Part shown: positions 10,261-22,659 of the stretch, piece after piece | How positions within the stretch are numbered: the stretch's first letter is position 1 | Layout: every line of letters begins with the position of its first letter | Assembly (NCBI RefSeq): GCF_900258045.1 | Contig: NZ_OGVD01000002.1 | Coordinates: forward strand, 124,001 to 188,000 | DNA length: 64,000 nucleotides | Reading direction: 5' to 3' | Source: Sphingorhabdus sp. EL138 | GTDB lineage: Bacteria; Pseudomonadota; Alphaproteobacteria; Sphingomonadales; Sphingomonadaceae | The notes under the pieces: generated by a model | What the model was told of the DNA's origin: nothing | The model's database searches: none | What the model saw: only the letters and a program-made list of their open reading frames with translations | Position numbers and translations under genes: made by a program

Positions 10261-11279
10261 TGCGCACTTTTCTCGCTGCCACTGCTCTTTGTGTTGCCGG
10301 TTTCGCGGTCAGCGCCGCGCCGACTGCACCGGTCGCGCCAGTGGATGATGCGGTGATCACATCGGCGGGCATGCCCAAGAAACTGTCAGACTTTGGCTTT
10401 TTCAAAGATGCGGCGGGATGGCAGCCGAACAATGGCGTAGAGCTTTATCTGCTCAACAGCCCCTTGTTCACTGACTATGCCGAGAAATATCGCTATATTT
10501 ATATCCCTGCAGGTGAAAAGGCAGTTGCTAGCGATGATGGTGTCGTTAAGTTTCCCGTCGGTTCCGCTTTGATCAAAAGTTTCGGCTATAAAATTGATGG
10601 CAAGGACAGGTTGCTTGAAACCCGTCTGCTGCTTCACCGTGCCGATGGCTGGATTGCTTTGCCCTATGTCTGGAATGCAGAACAGACTGAGGCTACGCTG
10701 AAAGTGGCAGGCAAGCGCATACCGGTAAGCTTCACAGACCCTTCCGGGAATAAGCGCGATATTAGCTATGCTGTACCGAACAAAAACCAGTGCAAGGAAT
10801 GTCATTCTTTGTCAGGAGCGGTCGTTCCGATCGGGCCGAAAATGCGCAACTTGCCGCATGATACGTTGGACATGTTGCTCAGTAATGCGATGCTCGAAAA
10901 AACCGCTGGCGATCATCCGCCCATACCGGATTATGCCGATGACGGCATGCCATTGGAAAGTCGGGCGCGGGCCTATCTCGATATTAACTGTGCGCATTGC
11001 CACAACCGCGAGGGATCGGCGAGCAATTCGGGTTTGTTCCTGACCTATGAAGAGGAAGCACAGGTCCATCTGGGTGTTGGCAAGCGCCCGGTTGCCGCAG
11101 GGCGCGGCAGCGGTGGATTTGAATTCGCGATTGCACCGGGCGAGCCGGATCAGAGTATCATGATGCACCGGCTCAAAAGTCTGGAGCCCGGTGTGGCGAT
11201 GCCGGAAGTTGGCCGGTCTTTGGTGCATGAAGAAGGCGCGGCCTTGCTTGGCGAGTGGATCGCGGCGATGGAAGAATGA
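10260..11279 (+). CDS. SO2930-family diheme c-type cytochrome
   Basis: 339 residues with a signal peptide (FLAATALCVAGFAVSA). There are two haem c attachment motifs, CKECH (NQCKECHSLSGAV) and CAHCH (INCAHCHNREGSA), and candidate axial Met residues later (SIMMHRLKS, VAMPEVGRS). The ATG overlaps the beta-helix gene's stop by one base, indicating obligate co-translation. The family (TIGR03806) is periplasmic and of unknown electron-transfer partner; pairing with a beta-helix protein is its defining context. Confidence 0.9.
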   Translation: MRTFLAATALCVAGFAVSAAPTAPVAPVDDAVITSAGMPKKLSDFGFFKDAAGWQPNNGVELYLLNSPLFTDYAEKYRYIYIPAGEKAVASDDGVVKFPVGSALIKSFGYKIDGKDRLLETRLLLHRADGWIALPYVWNAEQTEATLKVAGKRIPVSFTDPSGNKRDISYAVPNKNQCKECHSLSGAVVPIGPKMRNLPHDTLDMLLSNAMLEKTAGDHPPIPDYADDGMPLESRARAYLDINCAHCHNREGSASNSGLFLTYEEEAQVHLGVGKRPVAAGRGSGGFEFAIAPGEPDQSIMMHRLKSLEPGVAMPEVGRSLVHEEGAALLGEWIAAMEE

Positions 11280-11302
11280 CGTTCGGTTTGGTTCTTTAAT
11301 AA

Positions 11303-11502
11303 CCTCAAGCGCCGGGCGCGGGCATCCGCTCGCTTGGCTACGCGCCACAAGGCGCGGCGGCCAGTCGGCCTTGCCTCGCTGCGCTCGGACGATGCTCTGA
11401 AAGTGGCACCAGCCCGACGCATAGCGTCGGCAAGCGCGACCGCGCGCCCGAGCTTATGCGAGGAAAGCCAAGGGCACGGATGTGCCCGCCCGGCGCCTGA
11501 GG
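11303..11502 (+). repeat. Multi-hairpin palindromic intergenic element, copy 1
   Basis: 200 bp. It begins CCTCAAGCGCCGGGCGCGG and ends CCCGGCGCCTGAGG, so the ends are inverted repeats of ~37 bp. The left half to GGACGATGCTCT and the right half from CGACGCATAGCGTCGG match copies 2 and 3 closely, while the ~15 bp centre is unique. Inner hairpins include GCGCCacaaGGCGC and CGACGCatAGCGTCG. The right terminal hairpin is GGCAC-ggat-GTGCC where the other copies have CGGGC-ggat-GCCCG. The element lies between the convergent diheme cytochrome and DUF2147 genes, 15 bp from the latter's stop. Confidence 0.92.
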
Positions 11503-11517
11503 TCAAAAAAAGAATCC

Positions 11518-11946
11518 CTATTTCGCCCGGGTCCAGTTCTGTCCCTGGCAGAAAAAGGCGATACAGCCCTTCACTTTCAGCTTTGACGGGGACCGCAGGC
11601 TCACTTCGGAGCGATAGCTTTTCCCGGTTTTGGGATCATAAATCCGCCCACGCCAGACTTTGCCGTCCAGTTTGAAACCGGATAGCACCGCTATACCCAG
11701 CAATTTACGGCTGCGCAGTTTCTTATTCGGATTGTTGATATCTTTCTGGTCCACGCCATTGGGCGGTGTGACGAGATATTTATGTAACCGTCCACAGACC
11801 GTGTTACCGCATTTACCGATCTTGACGATTGCATCGCCGTCTTGCGTTACCCAATTGCCATTTATCGAGCCAGAGGCCAGTGCTGGTGTTGTCATCAACA
11901 GTCCACCAATCAACATAGCGGCCTTTGCAATCTGAGACTGTTTCAT
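11518..11946 (-). CDS. DUF2147 family exported protein
   Basis: 142 residues with a signal peptide (AMLIGGLLMTTPALAS). The DUF2147 pattern follows: GNWVTQDGDAIVKIGKCGNTVCGRL, then LLGIAVLSGFKLDGKVWRGRIYDPKTGKSYRSEVSL and LKVKGCIAFFCQGQNW. The four conserved cysteines likely form two disulfides in a lipocalin-like beta barrel in the periplasm. Function is unknown. Its 3' end abuts repeat copy 1. Confidence 0.9.
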   Translation of the reverse strand: MKQSQIAKAAMLIGGLLMTTPALASGSINGNWVTQDGDAIVKIGKCGNTVCGRLHKYLVTPPNGVDQKDINNPNKKLRSRKLLGIAVLSGFKLDGKVWRGRIYDPKTGKSYRSEVSLRSPSKLKVKGCIAFFCQGQNWTRAK

Positions 11947-11976
11947 GTGGTCCTGCCCTATATGTTTCTAAGATAT

Positions 11977-13257
11977 CTATTCTTTCGGCGATAGTGGCTC
12001 TTTGGTTACAACTGCCTGAACACGCCGGAATAACTGCCCTTTTTCTGCCCATAAGACAAACAGAAATGAAGCGCAGCCGCAAAGGAAAAATCCGATGACC
12101 AAAGGCAATGTGGATCCGTCAAATTGAAGTCCAATGGCCGCACCAATTGCGGCCGATATCAGGGACCGTGTGAAATTCTGGAAGGACGACGCCACGCCAG
12201 CACTTTTGCCGAAGGGTTGCATCGCAATGGCACTGAAATTCGCGCCGGTAAAGCCAACCATACCCATAGAAGCGGCCAACAGAGCAACAAACAGCGGCAG
12301 GGTAAGCCATCCCGACAGCGTGACAGCCAAATGGATGATCGCCACGAAGATGAAGAACAGAAGCGCCGCTTGCGATACGCGGCGCGCGCCAAATCGCATC
12401 ACGATCCGGCTATTTATGAAATTGCCGAAAGCCATGGCAATGGCGTTGATGGCAAAGATAAAAACGAAAATATCGGCTGCATCAAATGTATCGGAAAATA
12501 TCTGCTGGGCTGATGCGATAAAGGCGAATAGCGGAGCCATCATAAGGCCGCTGGCCAGAACGTGACCAACAGCGTTGCGATGCAGGATCACGCTCTTCCA
12601 GGCGCTTGTTACCGACGCCATGTTGATCAGCGTTTTGTCCTCGGGTCTAAGCGTTTCTGGCAAGCGGATCAGCACCCATATCAATGCCAATGCGCCAAAG
12701 GATGACAGGACAATGAAAATCACCTGCCAGGGCGCGAAAACCAGCACGAGCTGGCCCAACATGGGCGCCATGACCGGTACCACCATGAATACCATCATGA
12801 TTGTCGACATGGTTCGGGCCATTGCATCGCCCTCATAACGATCGCGAATGATGCTGTTTGCGAGAACCCCCATGGCAGAGGCGGCCAGACCCTGAACAAA
12901 GCGCGCACCAAGCAAGAGGTTATAATTCTCACTGAATGCACAGAGAATACCGAAGCCGACATAAATGGTGATAGTCCCCAAAAGTACCGGTTTTCGCCCG
13001 TAGCGATCAGCCAGTGAGCCGTAGAGGATCGATCCGATCGCCATGCCATAAATATAGGACGTGACAATCCATTGCCGGTCATTCGCGCCGGTCAGGCCAA
13101 AATCGTCCGAAATCAGGCCGAGTGCCGGCAGCATGATGTCGATAGCCAAGGCATTGAGCGACATCAGGCTGGCCATCATGATGACCAGCTCAAGGCGCCC
13201 CATTGGAAAAGGAAGAGATTTGTTACTCACTGGCGGGCTATGGCAACTATTATTCAT
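11977..13257 (-). CDS. MFS multidrug efflux transporter (Bcr/CflA family)
   Basis: 426 residues from MNNSCHSPP; the open frame extends ~56 codons upstream with non-membrane, low-complexity sequence that I exclude. About 12 transmembrane helices. MFS motif A is present as GSLADRYGRKPVLL, and the start LMSLNALAIDIMLPAL is typical of Bcr/CflA drug/H+ antiporters. It is divergent from the pentapeptide-repeat gene at 13321, sharing a ~60 bp intergenic region. The substrate cannot be read from sequence. Confidence 0.88.
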   Translation of the reverse strand: MNNSCHSPPVSNKSLPFPMGRLELVIMMASLMSLNALAIDIMLPALGLISDDFGLTGANDRQWIVTSYIYGMAIGSILYGSLADRYGRKPVLLGTITIYVGFGILCAFSENYNLLLGARFVQGLAASAMGVLANSIIRDRYEGDAMARTMSTIMMVFMVVPVMAPMLGQLVLVFAPWQVIFIVLSSFGALALIWVLIRLPETLRPEDKTLINMASVTSAWKSVILHRNAVGHVLASGLMMAPLFAFIASAQQIFSDTFDAADIFVFIFAINAIAMAFGNFINSRIVMRFGARRVSQAALLFFIFVAIIHLAVTLSGWLTLPLFVALLAASMGMVGFTGANFSAIAMQPFGKSAGVASSFQNFTRSLISAAIGAAIGLQFDGSTLPLVIGFFLCGCASFLFVLWAEKGQLFRRVQAVVTKEPLSPKE

Positions 13258-13320
13258 CGTGGCTATAGGTGAAAATGCTATAGTGATTGGCCGATACGCG
13301 AACAGGGAGTTTTGGGGATC

Positions 13321-14904
13321 GTGAAGTACATGAAGATGTGGCTTTGGGGCATGATGATGGCTCTGCCGTTCATGACCAACCCCGCCGCCGCGCAATTGCC
13401 AATACCACCGATTCCCGGCTGCCAATATGCCTATGGCAATATCTACGGCAGCGCCGATGGCAAAGCCGCAGGCGAAGCGATGAAAACCTATGACGGCACG
13501 ACAATCACTTCGCCGGAGCAGCTGGCGGACTATTCCGAGGCTGCGGGCGACAAAACCATCCTGATCGAAGGAGGCAATTTTTCGGGCTGGGATTTTACCG
13601 GTGTTGAATTGTCCAACATCTGTTTTGTGGAGAGTGACCTGCGCCGCACGGACTGGACCGGGGTGAAGGCGCCCGGCGTTGGTTTCATCAAATCAAATTT
13701 GGACGCCGCCGGAATGATCGGCGCAAATATGCAGGATATCCTGATCCGCAGCAGTATTTTTTCTCGGGTCGATGCCAAAGCGGTTGATTGGAGCAGCGGT
13801 AAACTGGATGGCGGTTGGGACGGCGATGTCGAGGGGCTCAATCTGGACGGCGCCAACCTGACCGGGTTCAAATTTGATTGCGGGATTACAGTTATCGATG
13901 GCTGCCCGATAGGACGCAACGGTATTAGTGCGCAGGTCACAAATCTCGCCTTTTCCGACTGGAGCAGCTTTGGCTTTTATGATGCTAATCTGACTGGCGT
14001 GGTATTGAACCAGACAATCATCAGCCCCCGCCAGTTCACCCAATTTCAGGATGCCCGCCTGATGGGACCAGTTTTCATATCCGGCGGCGATGAGAAGGTC
14101 ATGGTGCTGCCCGAAACCTGGGCGGTGCTAATGGCTTCGGCATTGGCAGCACAGGAAAATGACGCGCCATCTTTCGATTGCCGCAGGGCAAGGACTGATG
14201 TTGAGAAGGAAATCTGCGGCGAATATAACAGCACCATGCGCTTCTATGACCGGCAAGTTGCGGCACTTTACAAAGAAGTGCTCAAACGGGATCGCAGCGT
14301 GAAAGTCAGTCAGAAAGCCTGGCTGAAACAGCGGGATGCTTGCGGACTGGAACAATATCCAACCGACTGTCTGCGCCGCACCTATGATCAGCGTGTCGGC
14401 CATTTGATCGGGCTTATGGGAGAGCAGGATTGGCTTAAGCTTGGTGAAGCAGCCTTGTTTTTGGAAGATGTTCTTCCGCTCACCGACGATATCAAACAGT
14501 CACCAAGCTACCCACAACTGACGCCGATATTGGTCGGCGAAGCACGTGCGAGCCTGTTGGTTAAACGCAGCATGGACGGCAGTCTGGAAGCTTATGGCGA
14601 TGCCATTGGTGCCAATGCCCATATTTGCGGGCTCAGGGTAAAGGATCTGCGCTTTGATCCGGCGACCGGCTGGTACAGCATAAAGCAGGAAAAAGACGGT
14701 GTGACGCGCAACTTTCCGGTAATGCGCTATCATGACGGGCGCATGGAAATCTACAGAAACGGGCAGCTGCGCGGTGATGAGGATGGTCCGATGATGGACT
14801 ATGTCAGCTGCGGCGCGCGGGCGAGCTTTCCGCCCATGGTCCGGATGGCAGTGCCCGCCGCGGTTATGGAGCGATACCGCGAGGCCGCCGAAACCGAACG
14901 ATGA
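13321..14904 (+). CDS. Exported pentapeptide-repeat protein fused to an LprI-like domain
   Basis: 527 residues from GTG 13321 (TTG 13312 and ATG 13330 are alternatives). A signal peptide (MMMALPFMTNPAAA) is followed by a pentapeptide-repeat-like region (~75-240), with units such as FSGWDFTG, LRRTDWTG, LDGANLTG and YDANLTG. An LprI-type lysozyme-inhibitor-like domain (~275-360) follows: FDCRRARTDVEKEIC, DRQVAALYKEVLKR, KAWLKQRDAC, CLRRTYDQRV, with the conserved cysteines. The final ~150 residues have no domain I recognise. Its stop overlaps dinB by 4 bp (ATGA). Confidence 0.82.
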   Translation: MKYMKMWLWGMMMALPFMTNPAAAQLPIPPIPGCQYAYGNIYGSADGKAAGEAMKTYDGTTITSPEQLADYSEAAGDKTILIEGGNFSGWDFTGVELSNICFVESDLRRTDWTGVKAPGVGFIKSNLDAAGMIGANMQDILIRSSIFSRVDAKAVDWSSGKLDGGWDGDVEGLNLDGANLTGFKFDCGITVIDGCPIGRNGISAQVTNLAFSDWSSFGFYDANLTGVVLNQTIISPRQFTQFQDARLMGPVFISGGDEKVMVLPETWAVLMASALAAQENDAPSFDCRRARTDVEKEICGEYNSTMRFYDRQVAALYKEVLKRDRSVKVSQKAWLKQRDACGLEQYPTDCLRRTYDQRVGHLIGLMGEQDWLKLGEAALFLEDVLPLTDDIKQSPSYPQLTPILVGEARASLLVKRSMDGSLEAYGDAIGANAHICGLRVKDLRFDPATGWYSIKQEKDGVTRNFPVMRYHDGRMEIYRNGQLRGDEDGPMMDYVSCGARASFPPMVRMAVPAAVMERYREAAETER

Positions 14905-16001
14905 CGCAACAGATCGGCATCCGGAAAATCATCCATATCGATATGGATGCGTTTTTTGCCAGCGTCGAACAGCGCGATCATCCCGAATTGCGCGGCAAAC
15001 CGGTTGCGGTCGGTGGATCGGCCGCGCGCGGCGTCGTTGCGGCTGCGAGCTATGAAGCGCGGCAATTTGGTGTGCGCTCGGCCATGCCGTCCGTGACCGC
15101 GAAACGGCGCTGCCCCGACTTGATTTTCGTCAAGCATCGCTTTGATGTCTATCGCGAGGTGTCGCGGCAGATCCGCGAGATATTCCGCATGCATAGTGAT
15201 CTGGTGGAGCCGCTATCGCTCGACGAGGCCTATATCGATGTGACGCAAGACAAGATGGGGATCGGCAACGCCACCCGCATCGCCGAGATGATCCGCGCCG
15301 AGATCAAGAAACAGACGCAGTTGACTGCGAGCGCGGGCGTAAGCTACAATAAGTTCATCGCCAAAATCGCGTCCGACCAGAACAAACCCGATGGTATGTG
15401 TGTCATCAAGCCGCATCAGGGCGCAGATTTCGTCGCGCAATTGCCGGTGCGGAGGTTTTTTGGCGTGGGCCCCAAAACTGCGGAACGCATGTCCAAGCTG
15501 GGCATCCTTACGGGCGCAGATTTGCGCGCCCAGTCGGAGGATTTTCTGCGCCAGCATTTTGGTAAGTCGGCCGGTTATCTGTTCCGTGCCTCTCGCGGCG
15601 TCGACCACCGTGAGGTTAAACCTAACCGCATCCGTAAATCGGTTGGCGGCGAACGCACCTATGGCAGCGATCTGGTGAGCGACACCGATCTGGAAGAAGC
15701 GATGGAGAAGATTATCGACATTGTCTGGAACAGTATCGAGAAATCCGGATCGCGCGGCCGGACGGTGACGCTAAAGGCGAAATATGCCGATTTCCGGCAG
15801 ATTACCCGGTCCAAATCGCTCGACCGCAATGTCGAAGGCAAGGCGGAGTTTGCCGATATTGGCCGCGAATTGCTGGCCAGCATCATGCCGGTGGAAAATG
15901 GCGTGCGGCTATTGGGCCTAACGCTCGCGAATCTGGAAGGGGTTGATGAAGCGGAAGGCGAGCCCGCTGAGGAGGAGGGGCAGGCCGCCTTTGAGTTTTA
16001 G
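14901..16001 (+). CDS. dinB: DNA polymerase IV (Y-family)
   Basis: 366 residues. Y-family motifs are intact: catalytic Asp in IHIDMDAFFASVEQRD, then VAAASYEARQFGVRSAMPS, and the second acidic pair in PLSLDEAYIDVT. A helix-hairpin-helix follows (RFFGVGPKTAERMSKLGI) with a little-finger domain. It ends in an acidic tail (EAEGEPAEEEGQAAFEF), where the final residues resemble a beta-clamp-binding peptide. It performs translesion synthesis. Its ATG overlaps the preceding gene's stop, so it is translationally coupled rather than in an SOS cassette. Confidence 0.95.
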   Translation: MTQQIGIRKIIHIDMDAFFASVEQRDHPELRGKPVAVGGSAARGVVAAASYEARQFGVRSAMPSVTAKRRCPDLIFVKHRFDVYREVSRQIREIFRMHSDLVEPLSLDEAYIDVTQDKMGIGNATRIAEMIRAEIKKQTQLTASAGVSYNKFIAKIASDQNKPDGMCVIKPHQGADFVAQLPVRRFFGVGPKTAERMSKLGILTGADLRAQSEDFLRQHFGKSAGYLFRASRGVDHREVKPNRIRKSVGGERTYGSDLVSDTDLEEAMEKIIDIVWNSIEKSGSRGRTVTLKAKYADFRQITRSKSLDRNVEGKAEFADIGRELLASIMPVENGVRLLGLTLANLEGVDEAEGEPAEEEGQAAFEF

Positions 16002-16022
16002 AGAAGAGCATGTAGCCCCATG

Positions 16023-16062
16023 CCCGTCATCCTGGCCGGTTCTGGCCAGCCAAGATGACGGG
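16023..16062. terminator. Long hairpin between convergent dinB and TonB receptor genes
   Basis: CCCGTCAT (16023-16030) pairs with ATGACGGG (16055-16062), and inside it CTGGCC (16032-16037) pairs with GGCCAG (16044-16049). Position in the 77 bp gap between converging genes suggests a bidirectional transcription stop. No clear T-run follows; it could also be a single REP-like unit. Confidence 0.5.
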
Positions 16063-16078
16063 GCAATTGGAAGCCTGC

Positions 16079-18355
16079 TTAGAACTTCGTGCCTATCTCA
16101 AGACCATATATACGCGGCTGATTTACAAATGTGGTTAGATTGTTGAAATCGATGCCGCCCACAGCTGACTCATCACCGGTTATGTTCCGTACAAATCCGG
16201 CAATGTCTATCTTGCCGTTTCCTGTGCGATAGCCAACGCGCAGCCCTCCTTCGAGCAGACTGTCATCGCTAAACTCAACGGATTCGTACAGGAAGAAGTT
16301 GATCTTCGAACGGTAATACCAATCAGTAAAGGCATAAAGCTCGCCGCTGCCAAGCGGGATATTATAGCCAGCGGTCCAGTTAACCGTCCAGCGAGGCGAT
16401 TGCGGCAAAGTGTTACCATCTATCGAGAAAATGCCAGGGCTGCCCGCAACGGCAGGATCCAGAACCGTACAAGGCGCGCCGCAGCCAGCTACCGCCAGAT
16501 CATCGTCCTTGATCTCATTTTCATTATAGCCAACACCAACGGTGAAAGTCAGATTTTCCACCGGGCGCGCTTCCAATTCGGCTTCAAAGCCATAGCCTTC
16601 GACGTCATCAGCGTTCAGCAGAGTGGTAAAGTTTGAACCACCACCAACAGCCGTTAGCTGCAGATCTTCGGTATTGTAATAATAGCCGGTCAGGTTGAAC
16701 CGGGCGCGGCCATCCAGGAAGGTCGTTTTGATGCCTGCTTCATAAGACATGGTGCGCTCGTCCGTGGCGGTCGACAGTGTGCGGCCAAAGGCCAGACGAC
16801 CCTGGATTGCAGGTGCACGATAGCCGCGGGCTGCGCGGGCAAAAATATTGATGTCCGGGCTGACTTCATAGAGTGCGCTCAAATCCCAGGTCAGCAAGTT
16901 TGCATCCACGCTGGTACGCTGGAACGGAACAGGTCCGCCAAAACCAAGGAAGCCAGGCCGCGTATCCAGCGTCCGCCCAGCTACAAAATCGCGCTGATCA
17001 TCGTTATAACGCAGGCCGCCTTGCAGTTTCAGACCATTGTCGAACGCGTAAAATACCGATCCGAAGATGCCGAAGGCTTCGCTGACCTGTCGCTGGCGGG
17101 CAATCGCTGCGGGAGTAACGTCCTGCGGGGCTCCGAAATCGAGCGTCGTAATGTCGAGGCGCTCGTTGAAATAAAAGCCACCAAACTGATAACCAAGACC
17201 TTCGTCATTGTTTGAAGCAACGCGGATTTCTTGTGTATATTGGTTGAGGCTGGGAACATCATCCTGCGTCTGGGCCGAGAAGGGTATGGAACCTGGCCCG
17301 CCTGGGGGGGTGAATGGCAAATCGTTGCTAAAGCCGCCATCAATATCGCCGCGGCTCTGCAAATCACCTTCCCAATAAGACGTAACCGAGGTCAGCGTAA
17401 CCGGTCCGAAATCATATTCGACTGTCAGCCCGAGGTTGTAGTTATTCAGCTTCTGAAAGTTTATACCGTCCGAACGGGTTAAATCGCGTTCGAATTCTGT
17501 TCCGGGTCCACCGAGACCGATCAGGTCGTTGCTGCCAGTTGCGACGCTGTTGGCACGAAAAACGATAGCGGAACCGTCCATTGTGCGGACTTGCCCAACC
17601 AATCTTGCGGTGAGCGGGCCATCTTCATATTGCAGCTGCAGACGGGCAGCAACGTCGTCATATCCGCCCAGATCATTGCCAGGACCATTGTCGACATTGT
17701 CGATCCAGTCATCGCGATGCTGATAAAGCGCCGATAGCCGGACGGAGAAGCCATTGTCGTCAGCAACACCGGCCGCGCCCTCAACCTGATATGTACCCAA
17801 ACGCGCTATACTGACCTTAGCATAGCCACCAGTTTCGCCGGGTTTCACCGTATCGAATTTCACAATGCCAGCGGGCGTATTACGACCAAATAATGTGCCT
17901 TGCGGACCACGCAATACTTCAATCCGGTCCAGATCGAATACCGGGAAACCTTTGAGGATTGGGTTTTCCAGCACGACGTCATCATAGACGAGGCTAACCG
18001 GCTGTGACGCGTTGAGATCAAAATCGGTGTTGCCGAGGCCGCGAATGAAAAAACGCGGGAAGGTCCGGCCGAAAGAGCTTTCGATGTTAAGGTTTGGAAC
18101 GCGGCCAGCCAGGCTGCGAATATCGTTGCCACCAGATTGCACGGCGTTCAGGGCATCGTTGCTCAATGTAGAAACAGACAGCGGTACATCCTGAATATTC
18201 TCTTCGCGCCGCTGTGCGGTCACGACGATTGTACCGAGCTGATCATCGTCAACGCCAGCTTCATCCTGAGCAAGAACAGGTTGCGATAGACCGCCTGCGA
18301 GCAGGGCTCCAGCAAGGGCGAAACGAGAAATAGCTGATACAGATATGCGGCGCAT
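16079..18355 (-). CDS. TonB-dependent outer-membrane receptor
   Basis: 758 residues from MRRISVSAISRF; the frame is open 22 codons further upstream. A signal peptide (ALAGALLAGGLSQPVLAQ) is followed by a TonB-box-like GTIVVTAQRREENIQDVPLS. The plug domain has IRGLGN and IEVLRGPQGTLFGRNTPAG, and a 22-strand barrel ends in the outer-membrane signature IYGLEIGTKF. The plug sequence is of the type expanded in sphingomonads, often for complex organic ligands rather than siderophores. The ligand cannot be deduced and no catabolic gene is adjacent. The next gene upstream, gshA, is 193 bp away. Confidence 0.93.
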   Translation of the reverse strand: MRRISVSAISRFALAGALLAGGLSQPVLAQDEAGVDDDQLGTIVVTAQRREENIQDVPLSVSTLSNDALNAVQSGGNDIRSLAGRVPNLNIESSFGRTFPRFFIRGLGNTDFDLNASQPVSLVYDDVVLENPILKGFPVFDLDRIEVLRGPQGTLFGRNTPAGIVKFDTVKPGETGGYAKVSIARLGTYQVEGAAGVADDNGFSVRLSALYQHRDDWIDNVDNGPGNDLGGYDDVAARLQLQYEDGPLTARLVGQVRTMDGSAIVFRANSVATGSNDLIGLGGPGTEFERDLTRSDGINFQKLNNYNLGLTVEYDFGPVTLTSVTSYWEGDLQSRGDIDGGFSNDLPFTPPGGPGSIPFSAQTQDDVPSLNQYTQEIRVASNNDEGLGYQFGGFYFNERLDITTLDFGAPQDVTPAAIARQRQVSEAFGIFGSVFYAFDNGLKLQGGLRYNDDQRDFVAGRTLDTRPGFLGFGGPVPFQRTSVDANLLTWDLSALYEVSPDINIFARAARGYRAPAIQGRLAFGRTLSTATDERTMSYEAGIKTTFLDGRARFNLTGYYYNTEDLQLTAVGGGSNFTTLLNADDVEGYGFEAELEARPVENLTFTVGVGYNENEIKDDDLAVAGCGAPCTVLDPAVAGSPGIFSIDGNTLPQSPRWTVNWTAGYNIPLGSGELYAFTDWYYRSKINFFLYESVEFSDDSLLEGGLRVGYRTGNGKIDIAGFVRNITGDESAVGGIDFNNLTTFVNQPRIYGLEIGTKF

Positions 18356-18548
18356 GACGATTATCTCCGGCAATGGCGTTGGTAATGGACTCGGAGAGCT
18401 TCCCTGTTCTCCGCGCCGCAACCCCTGACCATCATGGCCGTAACGGTCAAGTTTATGGCTGTGTTAATGGACGGAATCGTAAGGAATCCAGCGCAACTGT
18501 TGCAATTGCGTTACAAAAGCGTTGTTGGAACGGGTGTTTCGACCGGCT

Positions 18549-19925
18549 TTAGAAACTCATCTCGTCATAAATGTGCGACAAATCGCCATTCCACTCGCCA
18601 TGATAGCGATCAAGCAGTTGAGCAGCTGGTGATTTGCCCTTGGCGACCACATCGCGCAGCGGATCGAGAAAACCGCTTTCATTGTCACCGCTGGTATTCA
18701 GGCGGCCCCGTGCGGTAAGGCCGGCGGAAGCAATATCGAGAATTTCCCCGGCCAGATCGAGCAGCTTGCCGCCATTGGGCAGCGGGGCGCTCAACCCCTG
18801 TTTTGGAACCGCGTTGCGCAAGGCTTCACGTTCTTCCATGCTCCAGCCCTTGACCCGGTCCCAGGCCGCATCAAGCGCAGTCTGGTCATAGAGCAGACCG
18901 ACCCAGAAAGCGGGCAGGGCACAGATACGGTTCCATGGTCCGCCATCGGCGCCGCGCATTTCGAGGAAGCTTTTCAGGCGCACTTCGGGGAAGGCCGTGG
19001 ACAGATGGTCATTCCAATCAGCCATGGTCGGTTTCTCACCGGGCAGGACGGACAATTCGCCCTTCAGGAAATCGCGGAAACTGAGCCCCGCCGCATTGAT
19101 ATATTTGCCGTCGCGAAAGACGAAATACATCGGCACGTCGAGCATATATTCGGCATAGCGTTCATAGCCAAAGCCCTCTTCAAATACGAAGGGCAGCATG
19201 CCGGTGCGGTGCGGATCGGTGTCCGACCAGATATGGCTGCGGAAGCTTTCAAAACCATTGGGCTTGTTTTCGGTGAACGGCGAATTGGCGAACAGCGCGG
19301 TGGCGAGCGGTTGCAGGGCCAGACCGACACGGAATTTCTGCGCCATGTCGGCTTCGCTGGCATAGTCAAGATTGACCTGGATCGTGCAGGTGCGCAGCAT
19401 CATGTCGAGGCCGAGATTGCCGACGGTCGGCATATGGTTCAGCATGATGCCGTAACGCCCCTTGGGCATGATCGGCAGCTCGGCGCGGGTCTTGTCCGGC
19501 CACATGCCCATGCCAAGGAAACCCTTGCCGGTTTTTTCGCCTATGGCTTTGACTTGCTGCAAATGGCGCCCGGTTTCGTTGCAGGTCTCGTGCAGATTTT
19601 CAAGCGGTGCACCGGAAAGTTCTAGCTGCCCGGCTGGCTCCAGGCTGACCGTTCCGTCGTCCCCGGCCATGGCAATGACCTTTCCGTTTTCCTCAACCGG
19701 CTTCCAGCCAAATTCCTGCAGAGCGAGCAGCAGGTCCTTGATCCCGCCAGGCTCGTCATAGCTGGGCGCGTGATGGTCGTTGGTACAATAGACGAATTTC
19801 TCATGCTCGGTACCAATGCGCCACTGGTCTTTTGGCTTCTCGCCGCCTTGCATCGGTTCGATAAGCTGGCTGAAATCCTCGATCACAGGATCGTTGCTAT
19901 TTGAAACTTGTCTCGTGCTCATCAT
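18549..19925 (-). CDS. gshA: Glutamate-cysteine ligase, plant/alphaproteobacterial type
   Basis: 458 residues. It catalyses the ATP-dependent first step of glutathione synthesis in the cytoplasm. Signatures are WRIGTEHEKFVY near the N-terminus, DGTVSLEPAGQLELSGAPLEN, LGMGMWP, KGRYGIMLNHMP and LEMRGADGGPWNRICALPAFWVG. This is the plant-like GshA class found in Alphaproteobacteria. The start has two ATGs in tandem. Repeat copy 2 lies ~70 bp upstream of the start. Confidence 0.95.
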   Translation of the reverse strand: MMSTRQVSNSNDPVIEDFSQLIEPMQGGEKPKDQWRIGTEHEKFVYCTNDHHAPSYDEPGGIKDLLLALQEFGWKPVEENGKVIAMAGDDGTVSLEPAGQLELSGAPLENLHETCNETGRHLQQVKAIGEKTGKGFLGMGMWPDKTRAELPIMPKGRYGIMLNHMPTVGNLGLDMMLRTCTIQVNLDYASEADMAQKFRVGLALQPLATALFANSPFTENKPNGFESFRSHIWSDTDPHRTGMLPFVFEEGFGYERYAEYMLDVPMYFVFRDGKYINAAGLSFRDFLKGELSVLPGEKPTMADWNDHLSTAFPEVRLKSFLEMRGADGGPWNRICALPAFWVGLLYDQTALDAAWDRVKGWSMEEREALRNAVPKQGLSAPLPNGGKLLDLAGEILDIASAGLTARGRLNTSGDNESGFLDPLRDVVAKGKSPAAQLLDRYHGEWNGDLSHIYDEMSF

Positions 19926-19994
19926 TTGCGTTTAGGCAAGTGTCCGAAATATCGCTAGAAATATTTTATTCGGGCGGGAGGAGTCTTTATTTAA

Positions 19995-20210
19995 CCTCAG
20001 GCGCCGGGCGCGGGCATCCGCCCGCTTGGCTACGCGCCATAAGGCGCGGCGGCCGGTCGGCCTTGCCTCGCTACACTCGGACGATGCTCTTTAGGTTTAA
20101 CCAGTTAAATCTGTCACCAGTCCGACGCATAGCGTCGGCAAGCGCGACCGCGCGCCCGAGCTTATGCGAGGAAAGCCAAGCGGGCGGATGCCCGCGCCCG
20201 GCGCCTGAGG
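19995..20210 (+). repeat. Multi-hairpin palindromic intergenic element, copy 2
   Basis: 216 bp, same orientation as copy 1. The end inverted repeats are nearly perfect over ~37 bp (CCTCAGGCGCCGGGCGCGGG at left, CCCGCGCCCGGCGCCTGAGG at right). Inner hairpins include GCGCCataaGGCGC, CGACGCatAGCGTCG and GCGCGaccGCGCGC. The ~31 bp centre (TTAGGTTTAACCAGTTAAAT and on) is unrelated to those of copies 1 and 3. It fills most of the gap between the YqaA-type gene's stop and the gshA start, both on the minus strand. Confidence 0.93.
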
Positions 20211-20220
20211 CTCAAAAAAA

Positions 20221-20802
20221 TTACAGCAGCCACTTGACCGCAACAAAGCCGCCAACGAACAATATCCCGCCGAGCGTTGTCGCCAGCGCAAAATTCTTGT
20301 CGATCCATTCTTTCATCGGTGCGCCAAACTGGGCAAGCAGAACAGCAACAAGGAAGAAGCGAGCGGATCGCGCAATAATGGCTGCAAAGATAAGGATATA
20401 GAGCGGCATGGAAGTGCTGCCCGCAGCTATAGTGATCACCTTGAACGGCAATGGCGTAAACCCGGCGAGCAGGACGACAATCCAGCCTTGCTCGTTAAAA
20501 TTCTGGGCAAACAGGTCGAATTTGTCAGTCACGCCGTAAAATTCAAGGATTGCAATACCAACAGTTTCGAACAGGAAAAAGCCGATCGCATAGCCAAGCA
20601 AAGCGCCCAACACCGACGAAACGGTACAGATGAAAGCATACCAATAGGCGCGTTTCGGCTTGGCCAAACACATCGGCGCAAGCATGACATCGGGCGGAAT
20701 GGGGAAGAAGCTCGACTCTGCAAAGCTGATCCCCGCAAGCCACTTGGTCGCTTGTGGATGACCGGCCTTGTCGAGCATCCATTCGTAAAGGCGTTTGAGC
20801 AT
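20221..20802 (-). CDS. YqaA/DedA-like (VTT domain) inner-membrane protein
   Basis: 193 residues and about five hydrophobic segments. Matches to the YqaA branch of the SNARE-associated/DedA superfamily are FAESSFFPIPPDVMLAPM near the N-terminus and LLAGFTPLPFKVITIAAG in the middle, the re-entrant-loop motifs of this fold. DedA-type proteins include lipid carriers; the YqaA branch is uncharacterised. The gene is flanked by repeat copies 2 and 3 in opposite orientations, 10 bp from each of its ends. Confidence 0.87.
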   Translation of the reverse strand: MLKRLYEWMLDKAGHPQATKWLAGISFAESSFFPIPPDVMLAPMCLAKPKRAYWYAFICTVSSVLGALLGYAIGFFLFETVGIAILEFYGVTDKFDLFAQNFNEQGWIVVLLAGFTPLPFKVITIAAGSTSMPLYILIFAAIIARSARFFLVAVLLAQFGAPMKEWIDKNFALATTLGGILFVGGFVAVKWLL

Positions 20803-20812
20803 TCTTATTGGC

Positions 20813-21042
20813 CCTCAAGCGCCGGGCGCGGGCATCCGCCCGCTTGGCTTTCCTCGCATAAGCTCGGGCGCGCAGTCGCGCTTGCCGACGCGATGCGTTG
20901 GTCCGGTGCCGAACTTAAGGTTATCCTAATCGGGTCTACCCTAGAGAGCATCGTCCGAGCATAGCGAGGCAAGGCCGACCGGCCGCCGCGCCTTGTTGGC
21001 GCGATAGCCAAGCGGGCGGATGCCCGCGCCCGGCGCTTGAGG
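20813..21042 (-). repeat. Multi-hairpin palindromic intergenic element, copy 3 (inverted)
   Basis: 230 bp, inverted relative to copies 1 and 2. The terminal inverted repeats are CCTCAAGCGCCGGGCGCGGG and its complement. Halves are conserved with the other copies (AGAGCATCGTCCGAG marks the conserved boundary), but the ~46 bp centre (around 20900-20946) is unique and contains GGTCC/GGACC-like and GGGTctACCC pairings. A further end fragment (CGGCGCCCGGCGCTTGAGGG, ~21058-21077) follows after a short A-rich spacer. The element lies between the AGCS stop and the YqaA-type start. Confidence 0.92.
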
Positions 21043-21087
21043 GCCAAAAAAGAATCTCGGCGCCCGGCGCTTGAGGGAATCAAAAAC

Positions 21088-22659
21088 CTAATGCCCCGCT
21101 GCCCCCGACACTTCCTCTTGCAGTTCCTTCGGCGTCTCGCGGCCGTGGTCGGTGCCCGCTGTCCGGTTGCCCTTGGCGAGGGCAAAGACCACGCCGGACA
21201 AGGCAAGCAGGGCTACAATATTCGGCAGCGTCATAACGGCGTTCGAAATATCGCCCAGGCGCCAGACCAGTTGCAGGGGTGCGAAGGAACCGAAGAAGAT
21301 CACCACGCACCACAAGACGCGCCAGATAAAGTGCAGTTTTTTCTCACCGCTCAGGCTCGCACCGGGCAGCAGGTCGTAAAGATAGGTGATCGCGCGCTCG
21401 CCATAATAGCTCCAGGTGAGCAGGGTGGTGAACACGAACAGGATCAGCGCGACCGAGACAATCAACGTGCCGATGGGAATGCTGAACACTTCAAACGGGA
21501 AGGCTGCACCATAAGCGCCCGATGTCATGGCAAAGCCATTGAGGTCGGATTGCCAGGCATGTTCGACCACGGTTTTGACGCCATTGGCATCAGTCACGGT
21601 GAAGTCGCCGGCGACCGTCAGCATGACCAAGGCGGTCATGGTGCAAATCACGATGGTGTCGATAAACGTGCCCATCATCGCAAAACGGCCCTGTGCCGCT
21701 GGATCATTGGTCTGTGCAACAGCATGGGCAATCGGGGTGGAACCCTGACCCGCCTCGTTGGAGAACAGCCCGCGCGCAACACCGGCGCGAATGGCAATCA
21801 TAATCATCGCGCCAAGGAAACCACCGGCCGCGGCGTCATAGCCAAATGCGCCTGCAAAGATGCGGGAGAAGGTTTCCGGCAGATAAGGCAGGTTGATCAT
21901 CAAGGCGATGAAAGCCATCACCAGATAAGCGGCCGCCATCCAAGGAACGATCGTTTCAGCGACTTTACCGATGGATTTGATACCGCCAATAATGACCGCG
22001 AAAACCGCAACAGCAGCAACTGCACCACCAATCCATTCCTCGACACCGAACAGTTCATTGGCGCTATCCCCCAGACTATTCGCCTGAATACCATTGCCGG
22101 TAACCAGCGCGGAAAATAGCGCGCCGATACAGAAAAGCACCGCCAGCCAGGTCCATTTCGGGCCAAGACCAAGGGTAATATAGGTCATGGGTCCGCCGCG
22201 ATAAGTGCCATCTTCGGCTTGTTCGCGGAAGCGGATGGCCAGCGACCCTTCGGCAAAGGCGAGCGCCATGCCGAACAGAGCGGTGATCCACATCCAGAAA
22301 ATTGCACCCGGCCCGCCGAGTGTAATGGCCGTCGCAACGCCCGCGAGATTGCCGGTACCCACTTGCCCGGAAAGGGCCGTCGACAGGGCTGCGAAGGGAG
22401 AAATCTCACCCGCGCCTTTACTGTCGGATTTCTTGAAAAGGCCAGCGAGGGCCGGGAACAGGCGGCGCAGCGGATAGCCGCGCAGACCGATCATGAAATA
22501 GATACCGGCGCCCAGCAGGATGATTACCATCGGCGGAATTGGCTGACCAGCAATGGCTATAACCGCTTCGCCATTCCAGGTCCCGCCCCAGATAAAGTCC
22601 GATACATTGGTGACCGGCTGAATAGCCGCTTCAAACCCCGAAACTGGCGCTGTACTCAC
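21088..22659 (-). CDS. Sodium:alanine/amino-acid symporter (AGCS family)
   Basis: 523 residues with about 11 helices. AGCS signatures are ALSTALSGQVGTGNLAGVAT (sodium/substrate site), IFWMWITALFGMALAFAEGS, GGPMTYI, FSNEAGQGSTPIAHA and WSYYGERAITYL. It would import alanine or glycine with Na+ across the inner membrane. The C-terminus carries a cytoplasmic tail. The 3' end is followed by the partial repeat end and copy 3. Its 5' region is shared with the divergent DUF2855 gene. Confidence 0.93.
   Translation of the reverse strand: MSTAPVSGFEAAIQPVTNVSDFIWGGTWNGEAVIAIAGQPIPPMVIILLGAGIYFMIGLRGYPLRRLFPALAGLFKKSDSKGAGEISPFAALSTALSGQVGTGNLAGVATAITLGGPGAIFWMWITALFGMALAFAEGSLAIRFREQAEDGTYRGGPMTYITLGLGPKWTWLAVLFCIGALFSALVTGNGIQANSLGDSANELFGVEEWIGGAVAAVAVFAVIIGGIKSIGKVAETIVPWMAAAYLVMAFIALMINLPYLPETFSRIFAGAFGYDAAAGGFLGAMIMIAIRAGVARGLFSNEAGQGSTPIAHAVAQTNDPAAQGRFAMMGTFIDTIVICTMTALVMLTVAGDFTVTDANGVKTVVEHAWQSDLNGFAMTSGAYGAAFPFEVFSIPIGTLIVSVALILFVFTTLLTWSYYGERAITYLYDLLPGASLSGEKKLHFIWRVLWCVVIFFGSFAPLQLVWRLGDISNAVMTLPNIVALLALSGVVFALAKGNRTAGTDHGRETPKELQEEVSGAAGH

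Follow-up and report, generated by a model that had tools for sequence, protein, structure and literature searches.

Three copies of a multi-hairpin intergenic element were found in a stretch of 64,000 nucleotides from the alphaproteobacterium Sphingorhabdus sp. EL138 (contig NZ_OGVD01000002.1, positions 124,001 to 188,000; this whole stretch is called the window). The copies lie at 11303–11502 (200 bp, plus strand), 19995–20210 (216 bp, plus strand), and 20813–21042 (230 bp, minus strand), as an earlier sequence-only reading of the window had described. They belong to a non-autonomous, non-coding repeat family of Alphaproteobacteria. In the genus (the Parasphingorhabdus group), different species carry elements at the same addresses, while address-specific sequence and orientation are nearly lost. 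I lean, with somewhat more confidence than doubt, towards the reading that the address is inherited and its occupant is repeatedly overwritten. This separation of an inherited address from a replaceable occupant is the most interesting result of the analysis. Discussions of bacterial repeats usually treat them as mobile parasites or RNA signals; in this case, replacement in near-random orientation is suggested for a genome with no detected transposase of the REP (repetitive extragenic palindromic) type.

Addresses and occupants

The placement and address counts are based on 82 full-length elements from sampled regions of nine genomes of the genus, a part of all copies. Addresses were assigned by the similarity of the flanking proteins. 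In this way, 75 of the 82 elements fell into clusters of at least two, and, with one mixed cluster of seven excluded, 68 of the remaining 75 elements were placed at 14 addresses common to different species. Are the occupants of a shared address more similar to one another than to other elements? Across genomes, the mean identity was 0.817 at the same address and 0.811 at different addresses, and it was 0.830 between addresses within one genome. Of 1000 permutations, 38 matched the address effect and 0 matched the genome effect, which was calculated for all 82 elements. Of the 75 elements, 26 have their nearest neighbour in the same genome (8.0 expected), 11 have it at the same address (4.4 expected), and 38 have it elsewhere. 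Different addresses of one genome can have near-identical centres: on the two sides of the yqaA gene in genome G031, for example, the element centres are identical and the whole elements are 95.5% identical.

Orientation is also hardly tied to the address. With the flanks matched by BLAST and the mixed cluster excluded, 87 same-address pairs have the same orientation and 76 have opposite orientations (p = 0.43 for bias), and both orientations occur at 12 of the 14 addresses. A rougher length-matched count including the mixed cluster gave 91 and 77, with 5 pairs unassigned. A site-specific invertible switch, as in phase variation, would produce both orientations at shared addresses. However, the identity of same-address copies is 0.818 in opposite and 0.816 in the same orientation, as compared with 0.811 at different addresses. 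Since opposite-orientation copies at one address are no more alike, the flips come with changed sequence, and I find such a switch barely credible.

Extra solitary ends were found no more than 90 bp from 30 of the 82 elements. There are 35 in all, and all 35 point in the same direction as the adjacent element end; in the background, the solitary-end motif occurs 2 times in 280 kb. One solitary end (GCGCCCGGCGCTTGAGG), overlooked in the sequence-only reading, lies in the window at 21060–21076 on the plus strand and is probably a remnant of an overwritten older copy. In G030, the flank equivalent to 21060–21076 runs directly into a real element end. I infer from these arrangements that the solitary ends are remnants of older copies overwritten by newer ones.

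In the proposed mechanism, another copy of the same genome would overwrite the occupant in either orientation and would leave partial old ends behind. The route may be gene-conversion-like copying or re-insertion into the existing copy. Flipping is probably of little cost to the host, since the two ends resemble each other. Any role for the host would be local; away from yqaA, folding at the 3′ end of the mRNA may be tolerated or mildly useful.

A Y1/REP transposase from the same genome is probably not the copying enzyme. A REP-type transposase had been proposed for checking; Y1_Tnp gave no match in this genome (G000), and 13 of the 32 genomes of the genus were positive. The element was also considered as a REPIN-like pair that is moved by a RAYT (REP-associated tyrosine transposase, Y1_Tnp), and the inverted pair of palindromic modules, the units scored as single in other lineages, and the homogeneity within genomes all agree with this. 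However, besides this genome, 18 of the 31 other congeners had no Y1_Tnp match, and Y1_Tnp was found in only 10 of the 39 element-bearing genomes outside the genus. A RAYT in the same genome as a requirement is already contradicted, and a Y1/REP transposase was rejected as the necessary same-genome enzyme. The family may still be a relic system that has long been without its transposase, but mobilisation by RAYT seems highly improbable.

Several points weigh against repeated overwriting. A weak address-specific signal persists (the 38 of 1000 permutations), and therefore plain vertical inheritance accounts for some of the pattern. The copies are about 82% identical to each other, which makes ordinary homologous conversion hard. 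Strong structural constraint alone could erase the address-specific signal, and re-insertion into a hot target site would look like overwriting. No enzyme, intermediate, or excision event was seen. The address assignment rests on flanking proteins from simple gene calls, and the avoidance of divergent spacers (described below) is weaker outside the genus, where 7 of 57 units are in divergent spacers.

Higgins and colleagues are said to have proposed long ago that REP elements may evolve by gene conversion. Whether REP-like repeats are kept by gene conversion, transposition, or host benefit is an old question. The covariance model, the 14 shared addresses, and the 32 genomes of one genus now make it directly testable.

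Module structure, pairing, and distribution

The building block of the family is a module of about 93 nucleotide residues with about four hairpins. Its loops and linkers are conserved, while its stems vary but stay paired. The Parasphingorhabdus element is composed of two such modules in inverted orientation with their tails outward, and it is 200–230 bp in length with long terminal inverted repeats. The right half (B) starts with a variable hairpin, followed by CAAG, the hairpin CGCG-ACC-GCGCG, and the hairpin CCGAGC-TTAT-GCGAGG. It ends with AAGCCAAG, a terminal hairpin with a GGAN loop, and GCCCGGCGCTTGAGG. As RNA, two tandem G-A pairs are possible in the stem of the TTAT loop. The left half (A) is laid out in the same way, but its stems differ. 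It was considered by eye whether CAAG and CUUG could pair across the terminal hairpin; this was dropped, since C/T variation breaks the pairing.

The three copies in the window follow this plan. Their terminal inverted repeats are 78%, 93%, and 96% complementary over 45–48 nt in copies 1, 2, and 3, respectively, and the two conserved halves noticed earlier correspond to two inverted half-modules matched by the covariance model (R1). In copy 1, half A was matched at 11302–11393 (minus strand, 63.1 bits) and half B at 11411–11503 (plus strand, 101.5 bits). The corresponding matches are 19994–20085 (A, minus strand, 66.4 bits) and 20119–20211 (B, plus strand, 102.7 bits) in copy 2, and 20950–21043 (A, plus strand, 68.3 bits) and 20812–20904 (B, minus strand, 103.8 bits) in copy 3. 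Adding 124000 converts window coordinates into contig coordinates (for example, half A of copy 1 is at 135302–135393 of contig C3). Copies 1 and 2 share two matching stretches of 113 and 108 nt with 89–90% identity, while copy 3 matches copy 2 as an inverted repeat of 114 nt (89%). The end motif GGATGCCCGCGCCCGGCGC occurs seven times in the window with up to three mismatches, six of them at copy ends, while 0.08 occurrences are expected in shuffled sequences.

The predicted folds are very stable. Copy 2 as RNA has a folding energy of −161.7 kcal/mol, as compared with −96.6 ± 4.8 for its shuffles (z = −13.5), and its two ends are predicted to pair over 37 nt. The z value is −12.8 for copy 2 as DNA and −7.0 for the minus strand of copy 1 as RNA.

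Is the pairing conserved? The R1 model of half B, in which three of the four hairpins are paired, was derived from 66 sequences, and its alignment omits 10 of the 76 non-redundant modules, whose 5′ part is truncated or rearranged. The conservation of the core is partly by construction because 57 of the 66 rows were found by an exact core pattern. In this alignment, 97.5% of 842 cells are standard pairs, and two-sided changes number 111 versus 27.3 in shuffled alignments. The covariation score is 0.306 versus 0.067 in shuffles, and no slid structure scored above 0.075. It is the first and the terminal hairpins that carry the signal, while the middle (TTAT-loop) hairpin is too invariant to inform. 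For 49 matches from other genomes of the class, aligned by fitting to R1, 96.9% of the cells are paired, with 95 two-sided changes versus 24.1 and a score of 0.478 versus 0.102. Here, two-sided changes occur in 10 of the 12 pairs, including all four pairs of the middle hairpin. The stems thus covary strongly, and the structure of the element, in which the sequence-only reading had noted several inner hairpins, is conserved.

Next to this, 354 terminal hairpins were collected with a search expression that includes the GGAN loop. They have 39 distinct perfect stems, and the loops are GGAT (299), GGAC (40), GGAG (12), and GGAA (3). Among their 1809 pairs, 1720 are Watson-Crick, 16 are G-U, 14 are A-C, and 59 are other combinations. 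Covariation indicates that pairing is constrained, but with G-U and A-C pairs about equally rare, the counts favour no single RNA strand over DNA.

In this genome (four contigs, 3.66 Mb), 19 half-modules were found, corresponding to about ten elements, of which eight were full-length in the scan. Every one of the 32 genomes of the genus, counting this one, was matched by R1, with 1–39 half-modules each. The element is thus multi-copy in a genome-wide covariance-model search of the kind proposed earlier, and it does not occur only here. In a sample of the class, 40 of 387 genomes matched (39 of 386 without this one), representing 20 families. In a sample of the phylum, 15 of 299 genomes matched, all 15 within the class, the share of the 299 lying outside the class not being stated. 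Both samples were searched with stricter filters, by which weak matches are lost. The named loci among the matches listed are from Erythrobacter, Aurantiacibacter, Croceicoccus, Rhizorhabdus, and Sphingomonas, as well as from a Rhodospirillaceae metagenome-assembled genome. Outside the genus, R1 scored 44 of the 65 units in named loci as single modules and 21 as inverted pairs. The single module is likely to be the basic unit, although some of the singles visibly have a divergent partner half. The distribution is patchy between close relatives, since genome G045 carries the module while G372 of the same genus has no match. In some non-sphingomonad loci (L094, L117, L160, and some loci of G261), the module is often followed by a further hairpin of the CAACGG-TCAT..ATGA-CCGTTGG type.

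No Rfam family matched the window at its gathering score; a weak match at 20578–20678 (E 0.53) lies elsewhere in the 19900–21150 region. No description of this repeat family was found in listings of open-licence papers, and PMC3733652 contains no mention of sphingomonads. Carriage by plasmids or phages was also rejected: none of 72,556 plasmid records covers 80% of the element (nine have partial matches), and none of 50,697 phage records matches it. Two IMG/VR contigs contain full elements (L192, four in 13.9 kb; L193, two) and may be chromosomal pieces. Several assemblies break inside or at an element (G013:C2:8-208, G030:C3:1-188, G017:C4:1-204, and G016:C3:12-90), and therefore draft genomes may undercount the copies.

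Placement, the yqaA leader, and GANTC sites

The sequence-only reading had placed the element in intergenic spacers near gene 3′ ends, in the manner of REP and bacterial interspersed mosaic elements (BIMEs), and this placement proved general. Genes were called with a simple codon-usage caller instead of an annotation. In this genome, all ten elements are intergenic with a gene 3′ end within 0–46 bp, none of the ten is in a divergent spacer, and one also adjoins the 3′ end of tRNA-Val. The genes ending beside them include those for SurE, ferredoxin, aminotransferase, FAA hydrolase, Lrp/AsnC, a LuxR-type regulator, DUF2147, and redoxin. No common function of the adjoining genes is apparent, and two of the ten scanned proteins had no Pfam match.

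In the nine genomes, 60 of 76 classified elements are in tandem, 15 in convergent, and 1 in divergent spacers, while the 186 background spacers of this genome are 124 tandem, 17 convergent, and 45 divergent. Divergent spacers are avoided (Fisher test, p = 1e-6) and convergent ones are mildly preferred (15 of 76 versus 17 of 186, p = 0.02), both p values being overstated because many addresses are common by descent. Of the 76 elements, 65 have a gene ending no more than 60 bp away, at a median distance of 20 bp for these 65. The three window copies contain no gene, as had been stated; 6 of the 82 elements overlap a low-scoring predicted open reading frame and were left unclassified. The hits are not scattered at random inside genes, and their structure is conserved. 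Outside the genus, 22 of 57 classified units are in convergent, 28 in tandem, and 7 in divergent spacers.

In the window, the right ends of copies 1, 2, and 3 lie 15, 10, and 45 bp from the minus-strand stop codons of the DUF2147, YqaA, and sodium:alanine symporter genes, respectively, in agreement with the earlier description. A plus-strand gene, overlooked before, also ends (stop at 11279) 23 bp before copy 1, and the spacer of copy 1 is therefore convergent. Copy 2 is between the yqaA 3′ end and the 5′ end of a GCS2/gshA-type gene, and copy 3 is between the symporter gene 3′ end and the yqaA 5′ end. Elements are also clustered in other yqaA/gshA neighbourhoods: besides window positions 11303–21042, clusters were seen at G011:C4:113742-134208 and G013:C2:94221-177417, and G031:C1:1791482-1821039 has nine elements in 30 kb.

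Are these elements cis-acting RNA structures under selection? The 3′ hairpins would then stop exonucleases or tune mRNA stability, a role that has been proposed for REP in Escherichia coli. The placement at 3′ ends, the very stable folds, and the covariation favour this reading. Moreover, in two genomes of another family (G261 and G468), 13 of 13 modules come after a stop codon, and all five informative tandem cases are in the sense orientation. However, orientation is unconstrained elsewhere: in the named loci outside the genus, single modules in tandem spacers are in sense 9 times and in antisense 8 times. Pooled with the survey of 41 modules that includes G261 and G468, with one doubly counted locus removed, the count is 22 sense versus 13 antisense (p = 0.18). 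In this survey, 16 modules are convergent (sense gene upstream, antisense gene downstream) and 14 have sense genes on both sides; among those with no sense gene upstream, 5 have an antisense and 6 a sense gene downstream. The argument that a strict sense orientation proves an RNA element was rejected, since such strictness was seen in G261 and G468 only. The patchiness among close relatives and a G-U frequency no higher than that of A-C, which is unexpected for one-strand RNA, also speak against RNA selection, which I regard as a possible but doubtful explanation. The 3′ untranslated region structure proposed by the sequence-only reading is thus right about the placement, while the near-random orientation, the T runs before the structure, and the copies close to the yqaA start codon do not suit it.

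A bidirectional transcription terminator or attenuator would suit the over-representation of convergent spacers. In addition, 20 terminator-like matches were obtained in 11200–21200 (11.7 expected from shuffles), and 5 of them coincide with terminal hairpins in the three copies and have the tail TTGGCTTTC. However, in the direction of transcription, the structure is preceded and not followed by the longer T runs, which are outside it. Furthermore, an element end lies 7–11 nt before the yqaA start, and therefore transcripts must pass through the element or start inside it. A terminator role is quite improbable.

The yqaA gene encodes a VTT-domain protein and is flanked by copy 2 on its 3′ side and by the inverted copy 3 on its 5′ side. 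Copy 3 ends 10 nt before the yqaA start codon, which had been overlooked. Its terminal GAGG (20813–20816, minus strand), 10 nt before the ATG (20802–20800), is a presumed Shine-Dalgarno sequence. Is this arrangement conserved? The yqaA gene is present in 29 genomes of the genus, this one included, and BLAST found the element upstream in 25 of the 29. In 26 of the 29 loci, an element-end GAGG lies 7–11 nt before the yqaA ATG (the distance in L066 was taken from the printed sequence); L062, L063, and L068 have no such GAGG. Among the 26, the distal end of the element was not found in L075 (where only the GAGG end is left), L058, L069, and L073, and in L054 a solitary end supplies the GAGG while a full element lies further upstream. 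These loci suggest that the element end TGAGG probably serves as the ribosome-binding site of yqaA. Since both ends carry TGAGG outward, either orientation would supply the same presumed site. Thus, at yqaA, the end of a repeat may have become a ribosome-binding site. The yqaA spacers seem to attract several repeat families, since in other congeners (loci L052, L057, L058, and L064) they are also occupied by palindromic repeats of the GTGCTCCGCACTTGATGCGGAGC, CTCTCCCTCAAGGGGAGAG, and GTGCTCCCGCGTAGGCGGGAGC types.

Many element ends are accompanied by GANTC. In the window, GAATC occurs 9 nt beyond the right ends of copy 1 (11512–11516) and copy 3 (21052–21056), and GAGTC occurs beyond the left end of copy 2 (19981–19985). 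In the nine genomes, GANTC lies within 20 nt outside 72 of 164 element ends, while the background is 0.04–0.06 per 21-nt window. As for the distances, 64 sites are at 8–13 nt, most often at 9 nt, while 10 are directly at the end. Only 3 sites are inside the 82 elements, and more than half of the ends have no outside GANTC. In loci of other genera, the outside GANTC is mostly missing by eye. This genome encodes a RAMA-domain protein, and among 14 control genomes RAMA was matched in Caulobacter alone; the protein fits a CcrM-type methylase without proving one.

In eight closed or nearly closed genomes, 43 of the 49 elements listed are in the origin-side half (23 of 29 after collapsing neighbours); these figures cover listed elements only, and the counts are not independent because sites are common by descent. 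In this genome, none of the 19 half-modules is on the 1.61-Mb contig with the dif site, while G030 and G018 have some elements on the dif-carrying contig. The dif-like site ATAATATATATTATGTTAA occurs exactly once in 28 of the 32 genomes of the genus, and G027 has a one-base variant. An association with the chromosome terminus (dif) was rejected, since the elements cluster far away from the dif-like site and the bias is opposite. In Caulobacter, GANTC stays hemimethylated longest near the origin. Copying might be clocked by replication through CcrM, such that hemimethylated GANTC at a fixed distance outside the ends would license overwriting at fixed gene-3′-end addresses, mostly near the origin. 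I consider this extension of the overwriting reading unlikely.

Comparison with known repeats

The sequence-only reading had also offered a miniature inverted-repeat transposable element (MITE). Terminal inverted repeats, intergenic position, and the absence of a gene inside were indeed found, and a MITE that arose from a classical (DDE) insertion sequence would be short, non-coding, and dispersed with long terminal inverted repeats, as this element is. However, the outer flanks (GATTC-T-run and A-run-GAATC) extend the inverted repeat instead of forming direct repeats, as judged by eye only. The MITE and REP alternatives are supported only in part: no Y1 transposase was matched in this genome, and shared addresses with exchanged occupants are unlike the pattern of simple insertions. 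I regard a classical MITE as very improbable. Enterobacterial repetitive intergenic consensus (ERIC) and Correia/NEMIS elements belong to the same 100–200-bp class of intergenic repeats bearing terminal inverted repeats. Both are reported to change mRNA processing (PMC10969869). They differ from the present element in host class and internal module structure, a distinction made without sequence comparison, and no TA target duplication was seen in the flanks read by eye.

REP and REPIN elements are described in PMC2817692 and PMC3733652 as short palindromes with a GTAG/CGTC head, usually in more than 100 copies per genome. A REPIN system also has a RAYT gene flanked by inverted REPs. The present family resembles REP, BIME, and REPIN in its intergenic palindromic modules, inverted pairs in extragenic space, homogenisation within a genome, and conserved pairing. 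REP elements are likewise placed at gene 3′ ends. In contrast, the module is about 93 nt long with about four hairpins, while a REP is 20–40 nt; about 10 elements are present here, as opposed to over 100 REP copies; and the ends are CCTCA/TGAGG without a GTAG head, with no RAYT found in this genome.

CcrM-associated intergenic repeats (CIRs), as described in PMC2229807, are about 110 bp long and have two independent arms without end-to-end pairing and GANTC in a terminal loop. Like the CIRs of Caulobacter and Brucella, the present element is alphaproteobacterial, intergenic, longer than 100 bp, and associated with stable stems and GANTC. Unlike CIR, its ends are predicted to pair over 37 nt, and GANTC lies outside, mostly 8–13 nt from the end. 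GANTC is rare inside the element (3 sites in 82 elements), the arms are not independent in the predicted fold, and the family is thus not CIR as described in that review. It offers a good natural setting in which to study how small repeats are carried and used by bacterial genomes. By the tests made, it is close in kind to REP/BIME and CIR but is a member of neither.

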